DNA of 43,142 nt from Hydrogenimonas thermophila (GTDB taxonomy: Bacteria > Campylobacterota > Campylobacteria > Campylobacterales > Hydrogenimonadaceae): positions 1 to 43,142 of the forward strand of contig NZ_FOXB01000017.1 in the NCBI RefSeq assembly GCF_900115615.1, read 5' to 3'. Under the pieces are notes generated by a model. The model searched no databases, was not told the origin of the DNA, and was given only the letters and a program-made list of their open reading frames with translations. Below are positions 1-16,579 of this stretch, piece after piece; position 1 is the stretch's first letter; each line of letters starts with the position of its first letter. The position numbers and the translations under genes were made by a program.

Positions 1-268
1 CTAATTCATCTTTATCTACTATCTCAAAAAAATCATATAATCTTGATCTCCCAGGTATTCGTATAAACTCTACTCCTAGTAATTTTTTTATCTCCTTCCT
101 TTTAGCGTTTGCTTTCATCCATTTATATACCTCTATTGGATTCTTTGCTCCCATTAATATAGCTATTATCGATAAAAACATTATTACCGGCAAACTATAC
201 TGTCTCCCCTGTGGTCTTGCCTGTTCTGATATATGCTCTTTTAAAATTTTCAATAATTCTGGCTCCAT
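1..268 (-). CDS. ISAs1-family transposase, N-terminal part (cut by window edge)
   Basis: An open frame starts with ATG at 268 on the minus strand, after a good Shine-Dalgarno (GGGAGAA), and runs off the left edge. It encodes 89 residues that resemble the DDE_Tnp_1-associated N-terminal domain of ISAs1 or H-repeat transposases: a leading helix, then QARPQGRQYSLPVIMFLSI, a hydrophobic stretch, GAKNPIEVYKWMKAN, and a GRSRLYDFF segment where the family has its substrate-binding helix. The catalytic DDE domain lies outside the window, so I cannot say whether the gene is intact. The IS end must lie between 268 and the nuclease gene at 527. I could not identify its terminal repeat with certainty. 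The family call rests on remembered domain pattern, not a search. Confidence 0.75.
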   Translation of the reverse strand, partial: MEPELLKILKEHISEQARPQGRQYSLPVIMFLSIIAILMGAKNPIEVYKWMKANAKRKEIKKLLGVEFIRIPGRSRLYDFFEIVDKDEL

Positions 269-346
269 TTTTTCTCCCGATATAAATATACTTTTTTGGC
301 TTTATAGCAAAAAGTATTCCTTAGTATCGGAATGGGCTAGAAGTAT

Positions 347-482
347 GGTAATTCAAAATTAAGCATAAATTGTGCGACTGAAGTCGCATCCCCAATTGGG
401 GTCGGGACTTTAGTCCCGAAAATTAGAGATTTTGCAAACTTGTAAGTCATTAAAATTAAGTTAAAGTTAGTTTTGAATTACC
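347..482. repeat. 12-bp inverted repeats bracketing a 136-bp non-coding element
   Basis: GGTAATTCAAAA at 347-358 is matched exactly by its reverse complement TTTTGAATTACC at 471-482. The pair brackets the triple-palindrome block at 373-419, giving a 136-bp segment with symmetric ends. This is the form of a small non-autonomous mobile element (MITE) or of one end of the neighbouring insertion sequence. I see no clear target-site duplication outside the repeats. The rest of the gap 269-526 shows no gene. That it is mobile is inference. Confidence 0.55.
373..419. repeat. REP-like cluster of three tandem palindromes
   Basis: Three hairpins follow one another almost without spacing. The first is TGCGACT-GA-AGTCGCA (373-388), the second CCCC-AATT-GGGG (390-401), the third TCGGGACT-TT-AGTCCCGA (402-419). 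All stems are perfect. The block is much richer in GC than its surroundings. Palindromes of the GACT-rich type are typical of REP elements moved by IS200-like RAYT transposases. None of that family is seen in this window. It could also act as a transcription barrier between the IS and the nuclease gene. Confidence 0.7.
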
Positions 483-526
483 GTGAAATAGAAGGCATTT
501 TAGACTTTTTCTGCTACAATTTCGGA

Positions 527-2086
527 ATGAAAAACTTAATTATTTTATTTATTTTATCTTCTTTTCTTTTAGCAAAAGATTTCCGTGTAGCAAGTTATAA
601 TGTGGAAAACCTATTTGACTTGCAAAGAAGTGGCTCAGAATATACTGAGTATATTCCATTTACAAAGTATGGATGGAATAAAAGAGCTTTCAACATTAAA
701 GTAAATAACATAGCTCAAGTTATTTGTGATATGAAGCCTGATATTATAGGCTTGCAAGAGATTGAAAGCGATTACTCACTTAAAGCACTTCAAATAGCTT
801 TGAAAAGATGTGGTTTAAGAATGCCATATAGAGCTATAGCGAATAAAAAACCATCTACAGTAAAAACTGCCCTACTCTCCAAATATCCTATTATAAAAAA
901 GCGTGAAATTGATCCTGACGGTAAATTGAGAAGCAGAAATATTTTAGAAGTTCTTTTAAATGTAGCTGGCAGACGACTATTTATATTTGTCAATCATTGG
1001 AAGTCACGCAGTGGGGCTGAGAGTAGAAGAATTACAAGTGCAAAAGCTTTAATGAAACGACTTTTGAAACTTCCAAAAAATAGTGATTATATTCTATTAG
1101 GTGATTTCAACAGTAATTGGGATGAATATAAAACTATATTAAGAACTCCTAGACTTAATGACACAAATGGAATAACAGGTATCAATCATATTCTTAAAAC
1201 AATAAAAGATGACAAACTTGTAACTAAATTTAATATAAGATGGCCTTACCATTACGATCTATGGTTGGAATTACCCCCTGAAAAAAGATGGTCTCACAAT
1301 TTTTTCGGTAAAAAGAGTGCACTTGATCATATTATTTTACCATATGGTATGTTTGACAATAAGGGAATAAACTATAAAGATAAAACATTTCATGTTTTTA
1401 AACCAAATTACCTTATTAAAAGAGATGGTTCAATTTTCAGATGGCAAGTTTCTGAAAAAGGGTATGGTAAACATTTAAATAGAGGGTACTCTGATCATTT
1501 ACCAATATATGCAGAGTTTACAACCAAACCATTTATTTTAACAACAAAAAAGGTTGAAGTAGAAAGTCCATCTACTAAATTAGAAAAAAATATAGCTCAT
1601 ATTTCAGATCTTTACAATATGCCATTGGGATGGAAAAATATTACTATTCCTGAAGCAGTTGTGATTTATAAAAAGCCTCCCTTTGCCATTTTAAAAGAAC
1701 CAAACGATCGTGCAATTTTGGTATATAAAGATATAAATGCTTTAAGATACTCTCATAAATATAAAGTTCTTGTAAAAGATCTATATGAGTACAGAGGTCT
1801 TCGTGAAATAACAAAACTTAAAGTATTAAAAGATTTGGGTAAAAGATATATCAATAACCTTTTATTAAAAAACTTCAAAGATTTAAATAAAAAAGAGTAT
1901 ATAAATGAAGTAGTAAAAAAAATTACCGGAAAATATAGAGATGGATATTTATACTATAAAAACGGTAAAAAGATTAAAATATATTTTAAAAATGGTGAAT
2001 CTATTCCAGTAAATAATGAAACCGTTACATTAAAAAATATCCGTATAGGATTATATAAAAACAAACCAGAACTTGTAGTTGAATAG
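527..2086 (+). CDS. Secreted endonuclease/exonuclease/phosphatase-family protein
   Basis: A 519-residue protein with the EEP fold. I chose the ATG at 527 because it opens directly into a signal peptide (MKNLIILFILSSFLLA, residues 1-16); the frame stays open upstream but that part is not signal-like. Family motifs appear in order: ASYNVENLF near residue 22 (metal-binding Asn and Glu), GLQEIE, the NHWKSRSG segment, LLGDFNSNW (catalytic Asp/Asn pair), and DHIILP then SDHLPIY near residue 330 (catalytic His). About 180 residues follow the core without a domain I recognise. The C-terminal part is rich in Lys and Tyr. It probably acts on nucleic acid or a phosphoester in the periplasm or outside the cell; the substrate cannot be read from sequence. 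Its ribosome-binding site is weak. Confidence 0.8.
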   Translation: MKNLIILFILSSFLLAKDFRVASYNVENLFDLQRSGSEYTEYIPFTKYGWNKRAFNIKVNNIAQVICDMKPDIIGLQEIESDYSLKALQIALKRCGLRMPYRAIANKKPSTVKTALLSKYPIIKKREIDPDGKLRSRNILEVLLNVAGRRLFIFVNHWKSRSGAESRRITSAKALMKRLLKLPKNSDYILLGDFNSNWDEYKTILRTPRLNDTNGITGINHILKTIKDDKLVTKFNIRWPYHYDLWLELPPEKRWSHNFFGKKSALDHIILPYGMFDNKGINYKDKTFHVFKPNYLIKRDGSIFRWQVSEKGYGKHLNRGYSDHLPIYAEFTTKPFILTTKKVEVESPSTKLEKNIAHISDLYNMPLGWKNITIPEAVVIYKKPPFAILKEPNDRAILVYKDINALRYSHKYKVLVKDLYEYRGLREITKLKVLKDLGKRYINNLLLKNFKDLNKKEYINEVVKKITGKYRDGYLYYKNGKKIKIYFKNGESIPVNNETVTLKNIRIGLYKNKPELVVE

Positions 2087-2101
2087 ATTGGAGATATGAC
2101 T

Positions 2102-2851
2102 ATGATAAATTTAGAAATAAGCACAATTTTTACAGTCGCTCTTTTAGGTGCATTTGGACACTGCATAGGTATGTGTGGAGGATTTGTACTTGCATATACA
2201 GCTGCAAAAGTAGATCACCAGTGGTCTAAAACAAGACAAATTATTGTACATTTGCTCTACTCTTTAGGGCGTGTTACAAGCTATATGTTTATTGGTGCCC
2301 TGTTTGGCTATTTGGGACAAAAAGTCAGTTTTAATATGACAACAAAAGGCACTCTTTTTATAAGTGTAGGCATATTGATGCTTCTTATTGGTTTATCTCT
2401 TATTGGTAAAATAAAATTTCTAAACTCTATTGAATCTTCTATTGCTCAAAGTTCAATATTTGGCAAACTGTTTAAGGCTGTAATACACTCTAAAAGTCTT
2501 ATGAGCTTCTACTTTATGGGAGTTCTTAATGGTTTGATTCCTTGCGGTTTGGTATATTTCTTTGCCACTGCCGCAATTGTAGCTGGTTCAGCTGTTAAAG
2601 GTGCTATTGTAATGGGAGTTTTTGGTGTAGCGACAATACCAGCAATGATGGGTGTAGGTATCTTCTCATCAATAATTAAAGGAGCATCATACAGGCAACT
2701 GATTTTAAAGATTGCAGCAGTTGTTGTAATGCTTTTTGGACTCTTTACAGCTTATAAAGGGTATATAATGATCACTAATCCTGAAGTGATCAAGAAAAAA
2801 ATGCATAAAATGCATCAAGAATTAAAGATACTTCCATCTCAAGAAAAATAG
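2102..2851 (+). CDS. TauE/SafE or UreH-type membrane protein
   Basis: An integral membrane protein of about 249 residues with six or so hydrophobic segments. It carries two family motifs: GHCIGMCGGF in the first helix and GLIPCGLVY about 130 residues later. Paired Cys-Gly and Pro-Cys-Gly helices are typical of the DsbD/UreH-like group often annotated as sulfite exporter TauE/SafE, members of which handle metals or help cytochrome oxidase assembly. The substrate is unknown. GGAG at 2090-2093 lies 2 nt before the ATG at 2096 but 8 nt before the ATG at 2102, so the second is the likelier start. The His/Lys-rich C-terminus (KKKMHKMHQE) could bind metal; that is inference. Its 3' end overlaps convergent dgkA by 13 bp. 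Confidence 0.75.
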   Translation: MINLEISTIFTVALLGAFGHCIGMCGGFVLAYTAAKVDHQWSKTRQIIVHLLYSLGRVTSYMFIGALFGYLGQKVSFNMTTKGTLFISVGILMLLIGLSLIGKIKFLNSIESSIAQSSIFGKLFKAVIHSKSLMSFYFMGVLNGLIPCGLVYFFATAAIVAGSAVKGAIVMGVFGVATIPAMMGVGIFSSIIKGASYRQLILKIAAVVVMLFGLFTAYKGYIMITNPEVIKKKMHKMHQELKILPSQEK

Positions 2852-10904: not shown

Positions 10905-12613
10905 ATATTGCTCGCTATGTGGTAAAGTTTTTTAAATGTATCGCAATCTTTTGAGAGTTGCTCTTTATTGCCTTGACATACAATATGACCATTTTCAAAG
11001 ACTAAAATCTTATCTGCACGTTCAATGGTTGTAAGACGATGTGCGATCATAAAGACTATAAGATCTTTTTTTAAGGCATAAATTGTTTCTATAATAGCCG
11101 CTTCACTCTTATTGTCTAATGCACTTGTAGCTTCATCAAGAATTAAAATATCAGGTGACTTGTAAAGTGCTCTTGCAATTGCAATCCGCTGACGCTGTCC
11201 GCCGGAGAGGTTTGTACCACCTTCACTAAGTACTGTATAGATGCCATTCTCAAGAGAGTTGACAAACTCCCATAAATTTGCCTTTTTAAGTGCTTCTATT
11301 ACTTTTTCTTCATCTGGTTCAACACCGTAAGCTATATTTGCAGCAATTGTATCATTGCTTATATATATGCGCTGTGTAACGATAGCAATTCGATCACGAA
11401 GTGATTTAACATCAATCTCTCTTGCATCTATGCCATTGATTTTTACTACACCTTCTACTGGATCATAAAAGCGAAGAATCAAGTTAACCATAGAACTCTT
11501 TCCTCCGCCACTATCGCCTACCAAACCTATAACTTCACCCTTTTTAGCATTAAAAGATATATTTTCCAGCGCAACAGTGTCACCATATTTTAGTGTTACA
11601 TTTTCAAACTCTAAATTTTGGACATTTTTAAGTATTTTATCTCCACTTATTATCATAGGTTTATATTGAAGAATCTGCTCTATCCGCTCATTTGCTGCTA
11701 CTGCATCCTGTAAGTGGCTGTAAGCCGTTGAAATTCGTCGTAATGGATCGATTAAAAGAGAGAGTGCTGTTAAAAAAGAGAAAAATTCACCGGTTGTAAG
11801 CTCTTTGGTAATTAAAACTTCTCTACCACCTATAATAATAACACTAGTAATTGCAATAGCGGCAACAAGCTCAAGTATAGGTATGAGCATCTGCTGAACT
11901 TTAACAGTCTTAATGTTGGTCGTAAAAAAACTCTTGTTACGCTCTTTAAAGTTACCAAGCTCATACTCTTGAGCGTTATATGATTTAATCATCTCATAAT
12001 TGGCAAAGATTTCTGAAAGAGTAGATATAAGATCAGAGTTGAGCTCTTGAGATTTATGAGATAGCTTTTTTATCTTTTTTGAGATCACTTCAACCGGATA
12101 AACAGCTAATGGAATAATAATTAGAGAGTATAGTGCAAGTGTTGGGCTTTGATAAATGACTACACCAAGAAGAGCTAAAACTGTAACAAGCTCTCTAAGC
12201 ACAACTGCCAAATCTGAAGAGATGGCAGTTTGTACCCGTAATATATCATTACTGATACGGCTTATCAATTCACCACTATGAAACCTGAAATGAAAGTCCA
12301 TATCAAGGTGCATCATATGGTTAAGCATTCTGTTACGAAGCTTTCTAATAATATCTTGCCCAATAAAGCTTAAAGCATACGATTGCATAAATGTTCCAAG
12401 CCCTTTTCCAACAAAAGCAAGTATTATGAAAATAGGCAGAATATAGAGCATTTGAATATCTTGCTCAACAAAGATACGATCCATTAAAGGTTTAACCAAA
12501 TAGGCAATTGCAGCAGTTGCCCCAGAAGCAAGCAACATACCGATAATTGCCATAACTATCTTGACCTTATAATCACGGTAGTATGGTAAGTATGTTTTAA
12601 AAAATTTTTTCAT
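10901..12613 (-). CDS. msbA: Lipid A export ABC transporter, permease and ATPase
   Basis: A 570-residue half-transporter, close to MsbA length. Six membrane helices occupy roughly residues 15-300. The ATPase domain has Walker A GLVGDSGGGKSS with K372, a Q-loop (IVTQRI), the signature LSGGQRQR, Walker B ILILDEATSALD and the switch His in IAHRLTT. It flips lipid A-core across the inner membrane. A heterodimer with another half-transporter is not excluded. The gene overlaps the phosphatase by 4 nt and lies 109 bp after the antitoxin gene. A weak ribosome-binding site precedes the ATG. Other lipid/peptide ABC exporters share this build, so msbA is the likeliest but not the only call. Confidence 0.85.
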   Translation of the reverse strand: MKKFFKTYLPYYRDYKVKIVMAIIGMLLASGATAAIAYLVKPLMDRIFVEQDIQMLYILPIFIILAFVGKGLGTFMQSYALSFIGQDIIRKLRNRMLNHMMHLDMDFHFRFHSGELISRISNDILRVQTAISSDLAVVLRELVTVLALLGVVIYQSPTLALYSLIIIPLAVYPVEVISKKIKKLSHKSQELNSDLISTLSEIFANYEMIKSYNAQEYELGNFKERNKSFFTTNIKTVKVQQMLIPILELVAAIAITSVIIIGGREVLITKELTTGEFFSFLTALSLLIDPLRRISTAYSHLQDAVAANERIEQILQYKPMIISGDKILKNVQNLEFENVTLKYGDTVALENISFNAKKGEVIGLVGDSGGGKSSMVNLILRFYDPVEGVVKINGIDAREIDVKSLRDRIAIVTQRIYISNDTIAANIAYGVEPDEEKVIEALKKANLWEFVNSLENGIYTVLSEGGTNLSGGQRQRIAIARALYKSPDILILDEATSALDNKSEAAIIETIYALKKDLIVFMIAHRLTTIERADKILVFENGHIVCQGNKEQLSKDCDTFKKLYHIASNI

Positions 12614-14647: not shown

Positions 14648-16579
14648 TTAGTTAGAAGCCTTTTTTGCCAAAATTTGGTACATTCCATCATCTTGTTCCT
14701 TCAAATACAACTCTTGATTCTTTTCTCCAGCTTTTGGGTAATATGTAATTCGCTGAGGTGGATTTAAAAGTTGATATTCTACTTCAGTAAAATCTTTCCA
14801 AACACCTCTATTTATAATTTTAGCATTTAAAACCATCTCTTGATATGTTAAAAGTTTAGTATTTATAATTTTCATTTCATCTTTTAAATGTGTATATTCA
14901 AGATTTTTCTCTTCAACTTTTTCTATGAGTTGTTGAAATTGTTTAATTTTAATTATAAATGAAGTTTGTGGTTTTATACCTTTAGCTTTATCTTGTACAA
15001 TTTTTTGTTTTAAAGTTTTAACTGCTGGTTCAGATTTTTCTTTTATTTTATTAAGCTTTGAAAGCTCTTCCTCTATTTTTCTGATCTTTTTTTTGAGTTT
15101 TTCTTTCTTCTCTTTTAATTCTGTTAACTCTTTATTATAAACAGGTATTTCATTAGCATCAATTACAATTTTATTATTTTCACCGAGCATATCTTCTATT
15201 TCAATTGATGATATTGCATAAAGTTTTACATTGGAACCTATTTTATTAATAACAATATCCATTGCTTTAATTTCTCCTCCAATAGCCTGCTGAACCTTAA
15301 CATGTCTAGCTTCTACTTTTCCACCTTCCAACCGTGTAACTTCAGCTGTTTCTGTTCTTAAAAAACCTTTATGAACATTTATTTTTGCATATTTAGCAAA
15401 AATTTCAGAAGTTTTATGAGTTTGACCTCCTATATAAACTTTTTCTCCAGTAACTTTACTTGAAGCTCCTACATTACCTTCAACTTTTACCTCTTCAGCT
15501 TCAACTTCTAAACCTGTTCCAATAGCATCTTTAATTGCATCTTTTTCGTGTATATGAAGTTTTACTTCAGTTTCAACTCCTGCATCTATAGAACCAGTTT
15601 TTTTAAAACTTACTTCATCAATTTGCATCTCATCTTGAATATCATATGTATTGTTGTTAAATACAACATATCCACCTCTTTGTGCCTTATAAATTATCTT
15701 AGATTCATCTTCTATAACTGCAATATTATCTGAAACATTAAAGTTAGGTCTCTCTTTATCTTTAGGAGGTGCAACAGGTATAAATTCACCTTTACAATTT
15801 CTTCCAGGAATGCCTGATTTTGCTTTTATATATTCAATTATCATCTCACCTTTTTCAACTGCTTGAACATAACCTCTCTTGCTATAGTCTATTCTATCAT
15901 TTTGATCTACGGAATCTTGTTTATTTTTATAATGCATAATTAATTGACTATCTATAGACTGTATTGATGGATAACATTGTGCTACATCAAACTTTATATC
16001 TTCTGGAACTAAATACTGCTTATTAACACGAACTTGAGCACATATTTCATTAAGAGCATTATCATAATCAACTTCCCATAGCTCTATTAGCATACCAGCC
16101 CTCATCATCTGCTTATGAATATTATTTTTTAATTTATTAAATAGATCTTCAGTTTCAATAAGTTTTGAACCAGCTTTTAAAATAGCTGAAATTCTGTTTT
16201 TTTCCTTATTTGTCATTATATGAAGCTGTAAGTCCCTACACCAAGGCTCTTCTTTATGTTTAATTATCTCGATCTCGTATGTCTGTTTTATTAAAACATT
16301 TGGATTTAAAATAATTTTAGGTTGATTAAAATTATTCCAGTCTCTATGCTCTATTTCTGTCCAATCTGGATCATTAGGATCCATTTTTACCAATGTATGA
16401 TAACTTAATAAAATAAAATCAAGTCTAGCAGTACTAAGTGAATATTTCTTTGCTGCATTATGTAATGCCTGAGAAATATTATCAGTTTTAATTACAAATG
16501 GAGTAAAGTCATCATTTTTTGTTTTAGCTTTTGAACTTTTTGAATCTTTTGAACTTTTAAATACATCAAATAATCCCAT
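14648..16579 (-). CDS. FapA/DUF342 family protein
   Basis: A 643-residue protein of the FapA (DUF342) family. The central region, about residues 220-460, is rich in short repeated strands with polar and glycine turns (VEAEEVKVEGNVGAS, then KVYIGGQTH and ARHVKVQQAIGGEI), the right-handed beta-helix pattern of DUF342. It is followed by a long coiled coil (LTELKEKKEKLKKKIRKIEE and onward to about residue 585). The N-terminus is Lys/Ser-rich and precedes a conserved domain. Members in Vibrio (FapA) affect polar flagellar assembly and chemoreceptor placement; a counterpart lies at this locus in Campylobacter. It is the first gene of the minus-strand run and probably near its promoter. Confidence 0.8.
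   Translation of the reverse strand: MGLFDVFKSSKDSKSSKAKTKNDDFTPFVIKTDNISQALHNAAKKYSLSTARLDFILLSYHTLVKMDPNDPDWTEIEHRDWNNFNQPKIILNPNVLIKQTYEIEIIKHKEEPWCRDLQLHIMTNKEKNRISAILKAGSKLIETEDLFNKLKNNIHKQMMRAGMLIELWEVDYDNALNEICAQVRVNKQYLVPEDIKFDVAQCYPSIQSIDSQLIMHYKNKQDSVDQNDRIDYSKRGYVQAVEKGEMIIEYIKAKSGIPGRNCKGEFIPVAPPKDKERPNFNVSDNIAVIEDESKIIYKAQRGGYVVFNNNTYDIQDEMQIDEVSFKKTGSIDAGVETEVKLHIHEKDAIKDAIGTGLEVEAEEVKVEGNVGASSKVTGEKVYIGGQTHKTSEIFAKYAKINVHKGFLRTETAEVTRLEGGKVEARHVKVQQAIGGEIKAMDIVINKIGSNVKLYAISSIEIEDMLGENNKIVIDANEIPVYNKELTELKEKKEKLKKKIRKIEEELSKLNKIKEKSEPAVKTLKQKIVQDKAKGIKPQTSFIIKIKQFQQLIEKVEEKNLEYTHLKDEMKIINTKLLTYQEMVLNAKIINRGVWKDFTEVEYQLLNPPQRITYYPKAGEKNQELYLKEQDDGMYQILAKKASN

Follow-up and report, generated by a model that had tools for sequence, protein, structure and literature searches.

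The palindromic block at positions 347-482 of this stretch raises the question of what kind of element it is, and whether it belongs with the insertion sequence (IS) immediately beside it. The window, by which we mean the whole stretch of DNA analysed, comprises 43,142 nucleotides of a Hydrogenimonas thermophila contig. A sequence-only reading had described three perfect hairpins enclosed by exact 12-bp inverted repeats, and had offered three identities for the unit: a MITE, a REP element moved by a RAYT transposase, or a structured IS end.

The hairpin block and its boundaries

All three perfect hairpins claimed at 373-419 were confirmed, with a span of 373-418 on the + strand. Hairpin 1 (TGCGACT-GA-AGTCGCA, 373-388) is supported by the sequence, by the fold and by a match to the covariance model R1 described below (374-419). 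The central hairpin (CCCC-AATT-GGGG, 390-401) carries a CCCC and a GGGG that are invariant among the aligned units, and hairpin 2 (CGGGACT-TT-AGTCCCG, 403-418) is evident from the sequence, the unit alignment and the fold. Folded as single-stranded DNA, positions 373-420 reach -15.2 kcal/mol (z -5.2), a value equalled by none of 200 shuffles, and the complete block (347-482) has a z of -6.4 against shuffles. The inverted repeat GGTAATTCAAAA is likewise confirmed as exact at 347-358 (left arm, + strand) and 471-482 (right arm, - strand). It forms the sole pair in the window at up to one mismatch and extends to 25 nt at 80%. Two or more matches of the 12-bp arm occur somewhere in 20 of 100 window shuffles, so the arms alone are weak evidence. 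A scan of 280-640 found no promoters or terminators, and Rfam applied to window positions 1-2200 returned only a sub-threshold Flavo-1 match (269-342; 25.2 bits against a gathering threshold of 42). The next gene, at 530-2086 on the + strand, belongs to the endonuclease/exonuclease/phosphatase family (Pfam PF19580).

The left edge of the window is occupied by the 5' part of an IS (1-339, - strand), which we take to be of the ISAs1 family and which includes the start of a transposase gene (2-268, - strand; DDE_Tnp_1_assoc, Pfam PF13808, above cut-off). A search of the genome with window positions 1-350 gave 13 rows, corresponding to the window itself, one weak match and 11 other places. Among these 11 the IS ends at query position 339 in eight, at 340 in two and at 346 in one, and the seven IS copies compared diverge from the window directly after 339 or 340. 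Since 10 of the 11 other matching places put the end of the IS at 339 (two of them one base later), leaving 7 bases between it and the left arm, the block is not an IS end, and the suggestion of a structured IS end is refuted. The IS is independent of the hairpin block and is a neighbour only.

The two arms have different histories among the copies. The left arm, with the bases up to about 372, also occurs on contig C1, in two sister copies (98% and 91% in BLASTN across query positions 8-72), both of which begin with the left boundary CACGGTAATTC (C1:33352 and C1:37489). The right arm is present in the window copy only, being absent from both C1 copies and from the other units compared. The sequence-only reading had proposed a genome-wide BLASTN search for the 136-bp unit; it yields one full-length copy, and the other copies do not keep the inverted repeats. 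A MITE, in which a DDE transposase cuts at TCACGGTAATTC-type terminal repeats and the hairpins are passive filling, would account for the exact 12-bp inverted repeats and for the recurrence of CACGGTAATTC, which at C1:37489 follows the apparent cut end of a coding repeat. Another species of the genus, G002, alone among 149 genomes, also has 26 nt of the left arm (E 7e-4), possibly by chance. We nevertheless regard a MITE as very improbable and the idea as unsupported, because the 136-bp unit is single-copy in the genome and its right arm is not shared with any other copy compared. The IS at the left edge (to 339) replaces the left flank, so any target duplication of the 347-482 unit is unreadable. 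The outer 12-bp inverted repeats are the arms of the window copy alone.

A dispersed REP/BIME-like repeat

Within the arms, two GACT..AGTC hairpins stand head to head around CCCC..GGGG, and it is this layout that recurs. BLASTN of the organism's own genome with positions 340-490 returned one full-length match and ten shorter ones, and the pattern GGGACTTTAGTCCC at up to one mismatch gave 19 matches there against 0 for a reversed control pattern. Model R1 was built from 12 aligned units over 50 columns. Searched against both strands of the same genome, it matches at least 26 places, counted in the best 48 of 49 rows and with the window copy included, nine of which lie on a single prophage contig, C28. 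At E 0.01 or better it matches in 19 of the 120 genomes searched, the organism's own genome counted. Across the 12 units, pairing holds in 97.1% of cells, and in 14 cells both partners have changed; 0 of 500 shuffles reach either value. As the structure was drawn from those 12 sequences the 97.1% leans towards it, and slid controls pair at 24-52%. The stem changes occur in pairs (GAG/CTC, GGG/CCC, TGG/CCA, GCG/CGC and TAG/CTA).

REPs are palindromes of 20-40 bp that can form a stem-loop. The repeat agrees with this, although each hairpin alone has 16 bases; two such REPs are inverted as one unit, and the unit is dispersed through the genome. The block is a member of a dispersed family of REP/BIME-like palindromes. 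It is of an ordinary kind, a REP-like repeat without a standard tag or a known transposase: a GTAG or CGTC foot tag is absent from the 12 units, all of which have CCCC/GGGG instead. The accounts in PMC2817692 and PMC3733652 describe REP, BIME and REPIN sequences of the GTAG and CGTC super-families that are similarly short, covarying palindromes, head-to-head, dispersed and sometimes located within genes. The present repeat differs in its foot, which is GGGG plus two bases, in its number of places, which is not in the hundreds (REP copies usually exceed 100 per genome, according to PMC2817692), and in that its cognate RAYT was not found. The REP identity in the sequence-only reading thus stands as far as a multi-copy, covarying repeat of head-to-head hairpins is concerned, while movement by a RAYT is without support.

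The genome contains three Y1 genes. Two of them (C9 and C40) match the IS200 family NF033573. The sole RAYT-like gene (C1:40959-41864), which has a C-terminal HTH, scores 68.6 bits against a cut-off of 80, and no copy of the hairpin repeat lies within 3.3 kb of it. The same 22-base stretch beginning GCGGGTCAGAGG occurs on both sides of the RAYT-like gene, which at L036:12915-13890 has direct copies of GCGGGTCAGAGGTTTACTTTTT as its flanks. Stretches related to this flank repeat occur near BIMEs on C53 and C1. A search for a TnpA-REP gene elsewhere had also been proposed; the one candidate is not flanked by the hairpin repeat, and 0 of 30 RAYT loci of the order, drawn from matches in 165 genomes, carry it. 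Most of the 30 have hairpins of their own around the gene. PMC6006769 describes RAYTs of one subclass that have HTH ends and lack neighbouring REPs, and the C1 gene appears to fit that subclass when compared by description. A cognate transposase for the hairpin repeat was found neither in the organism's own genome nor among the 30 RAYT loci. The repeat most likely spread in the past as single-stranded hairpin DNA, by way of a putative Y1-type transposase acting in trans.

The window copy is intergenic. Contig C28 is a 29.4-kb prophage contig with BIME arrays at L037:10605-10714, 11937-12046 and 15732-15841, and two of the three lie in frame within the head maturation protease and portal genes, as SETKVS.PN.GAGTSVPQ linkers with a 36-base period. 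The repeat positions on C28 are those of IMGVR_UViG_2654587899_000001. Rickettsia palindromic elements (RPE), as presented in PMC3733652, are palindromic repeats inside genes like the BIMEs in these prophage genes; they are unlike the 23-nt insert described below, the length of which is not a multiple of three and which breaks frames. A BIME unit at C28:14677-14761 lies between 17-bp direct repeats ATTAAAGCTATATAAGG that resemble a long target duplication. We count these direct repeats against the explanation that we favour, because a Y1 reaction does not predict them.

A 23-nt insert and its target sites

Hairpin 2 has in its loop a junction, TTT^A (411-412, + strand), that is uninterrupted in the window, whose copy represents the empty form. 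Six sister copies are filled (C1:33271, C1:37552, C2:304, C5:17433, C15:19690 and C53:6521), the two on C1 at this junction. The filling is a 23-nt sequence, CTCACAGAGAGTGCAAGCACAAG, which sits in the hairpin loop and has no gene of its own. A 24-nt pattern has eight matches in the organism's own genome, two of them outside the repeat family (one on C22, the other on C40 in an IS605-type tnpA), and a loop-tolerant pattern adds one further match, on C6. Energetically the 23-mer is ordinary: it has two stems of 3-4 bp with loops of variable length and sequence, a fold of -1.5 kcal/mol (z about 0), and no compensatory stem change was seen. In 1.04 Mb searched for a longer carrier, in which the two halves of the 23-mer would lie apart, nothing convincing appeared.

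Filled and empty sites differ by a pure 23-nt insertion after TTT, in which target bases are neither gained nor lost and no target duplication arises. An IS3 element on a plasmid of Arcobacter sp. AZ-2023 (L198) is identical to its counterpart in A. cryaerophilus ATCC 43158 (L202) at 548 of 555 positions, with two 23-nt inserts as the only gaps, and A. cibarius pACIB (L200) shows one clean 23-nt gap against each of the plasmids L203 and L204. When flanks were blasted with the 23 nt left out, empty counterparts appeared in REP, IS and intergenic pairs among the alignments listed, which are part of 181. The insertion in the C40 tnpA is less clean, in that target bases seem to be missing when it is compared by eye with the usual TnpA sequence. 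Read from the opposite strand, the insert is CTCACAGAGAGTGCAAGCACAAG and comes after TTT.

Several insertions recur at one position within genes. In three loci (L175:2305-2961, L142 near 7772 and L177 near 1064) the insert stands at one and the same position, after the apparent sixth codon of a RAYT-type gene or remnant, and in two genomes (L074 and L198) an IS3 orfA gene carries it immediately ahead of the A6G run. Duplicates of IS256 type carry it at identical transposase-gene sites, both in G277 (L314 9358-10734 and L315 8867-10243) and in G070 (L316 and L318). The G277 copies have three inserts each, and the frames are open between inserts. The seven synonymous and five non-synonymous codon changes between them, partly in one cluster, decide nothing about retained function after insertion. 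Ribosome bypass was dropped, as the take-off and landing codons mismatch at the few sites compared by eye.

The 23-mer is scattered through one phylum. With the 24-mer pattern at up to three mismatches it was found in 21 of 149 relatives (16 of 61 genera). The loop-tolerant pattern, applied to 398 genomes of the order, matched in 41 of them, which represent 19 of 87 genera; a reversed control pattern gave 0 matches among the genomes listed. A search of 84,980 species returned 92 matching stretches. The best 80 of the 92 titles comprise 76 Campylobacterota, two labelled only 'bacterium' and two archaeal MAGs (L106 and L162), in which the flanking sequence matches loci of Campylobacterota. Among 72,556 plasmids, seven carry a match, all from Arcobacter, Aliarcobacter or Sulfurovum. 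Four of 50,697 phage records match weakly, and the one convincing case is a Campylobacter jejuni prophage record; viral contigs gave 0 matches to the 24-nt pattern TTGTGCTTGCACTCTCTKTGAGAA. No published account of the 23-mer or of the hairpin repeat was found in the open-access PMC text, a scope that leaves bioRxiv and subscription journals outside.

The search patterns themselves fix two of the target T bases in the 84,980-species set, all three in the 398-genome set and one in the 149-relative set, so the first two sets cannot test the target. In the 149-relative set, where the pattern fixes one A, 25 of 26 contexts then have AA. Among 109 distinct contexts, 17 have flanks that form a perfect stem of at least 5 bp, whereas re-pairing of flanks predicts about 2.4. 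With the joined flanks folded, the junction falls in the loop of a hairpin whose stem is 6 or longer at 30 of 141 sites, compared with 125 of 2000 random TTT sites (p 2e-8). By GC skew, uncontrolled for replication origins and gene direction, the TTT strand is the G-rich one at 69 of 105 loci (p 0.0017) and at 35 of 50 sites (p 0.007); the filled copies in genome G106 may descend from one insertion, and the loop and strand statistics are to that extent not fully independent. Hairpin loops are enriched as targets but not required, and most sites lie outside strong hairpins. In G106 an unrelated REP-like family (CCAGATTT^ATCTGG) has the insert in its loop and empty copies next to the filled ones, and 14 of 41 matches to a fuzzy anchor counted as filled, some of the 41 being chance matches. 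A third short repeat, CTCACT^AAAGC..., is a frequent target (L090, L105, L137, L145, L154, L167, L174, L179 and G000:C6:35207).

Proposed single-strand transposition and its alternatives

We consider it probable, at roughly 70%, that the block is a REP/BIME-like repeat whose loops serve as landing sites for a 23-mer transposed as a single strand, with an uninterrupted copy in the window and an independent IS beside it. In such a sequence of events, REP-like loops exposed as single strands during replication would offer landing sites for the 23-nt sequence, which would insert 3' of TTT, most likely by a single-strand transposition reaction, and the adjacent IS would have landed beside the hairpin block independently. 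The single-strand model for the 23-mer is held with moderate confidence; transposition of this type predicts exact ends, no target duplication, a fixed TTT and a bias to the G-rich strand, as observed. The 23-nt insert is the unusual part of the finding, and the block itself is ordinary. More tentatively, and with doubt slightly outweighing belief, we propose that CTCACAGAGAGTGCAAGCACAAG is a transposable sequence of 23 nt without a gene, perhaps the smallest that any cell contains, and is confined to Campylobacterota. An as yet unrecognised enzyme would move it in trans as ssDNA into TTT sites, with a preference for hairpin loops.

Some known systems share part of this behaviour. Mitochondrial double-hairpin elements are tiny dispersed sequences able to form two adjacent hairpins, and by that description they resemble the 23-mer, which differs in being bacterial, in recurring as a near-identical sequence at TTT and in the weakness of its hairpins. 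Elements of the IS200/IS605 family make no target duplication, and the 23-mer too is inserted 3' of a fixed short target without one. Like IS200/IS605 and TnpA(REP) as set out in PMC6006769, the 23-mer inserts 3' of a short fixed sequence; it may also resemble them in its two small potential hairpins and, judged by GC skew, in a bias to the expected lagging-strand template. The insert is unlike IS200/IS605 in that its 23 nt leave no room for hairpins of the known size, given there as 20-25 nt each, and in that its transposase is only hypothetical. IS1397, ISKpn1 and ISPpu9, according to PMC1525189 and PMC8450116, also use REP elements as target sites; they are complete IS elements, in contrast to a gene-less insert of 23 nt.

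RAYT and IS200 transposases were considered as mobilisers and rejected across the 398 genomes, as neither is associated with the insert. RAYT matches occur in 19 of the 41 genomes that carry the insert and in 146 of the 357 that lack it (p 0.51), IS200 transposase matches in 5 of 41 and 51 of 357 (p 1.0), and at the thresholds used 20 of the 41 show neither. This lack of association with Y1 transposase genes, along with the weak mini-hairpins and the 1.04 Mb free of a longer carrier element, favours insertion of the 23-mer by other machinery, such as a site-specific recombinase, a CRISPR-like integrase, or the copying of an abundant RNA or oligonucleotide at hairpin breaks. We regard this as unlikely, if worth serious attention, because IS200/IS605 chemistry predicts the features seen: a TTT fixed on one side, exact ends, no target duplication and a bias to the G-rich strand (for the lagging strand, as described in PMC6006769).

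The 23-mer could also be ordinary REP cargo that arose once in a loop and was spread by REP amplification and recombination. Many copies do lie in REP loops, and the filled anchor matches of G106 look like amplified descendants. Against this, the same insertion occurs without REP flanks in transposase genes of IS3, IS256, IS30, IS1595 and IS605 type and in a RAYT-type gene (the IS1595, IS30 and RAYT labels of single loci being assigned by eye), and clean filled and empty pairs exist outside REPs, which together make passive carriage improbable. An assembly or library artefact is scarcely credible: adaptors can give a short identical sequence in hairpins, but the insert is present in single-contig genomes and in named complete plasmids, is almost restricted to Campylobacterota apart from the two archaeal MAGs with Campylobacterota-matching flanks, and has graded variants in loops and bases.

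The 23-nt insert is a practical marker, since it breaks reading frames and annotation pipelines may call the results broken genes or hypothetical proteins. The mobility of REP hairpins, and what acts on them, is still debated. A second sequence that lands in REP loops as well as in ordinary genes, leaving clean filled and empty sites, would mean that these loops are live targets, and the 23-mer would set a size limit for mobile DNA.
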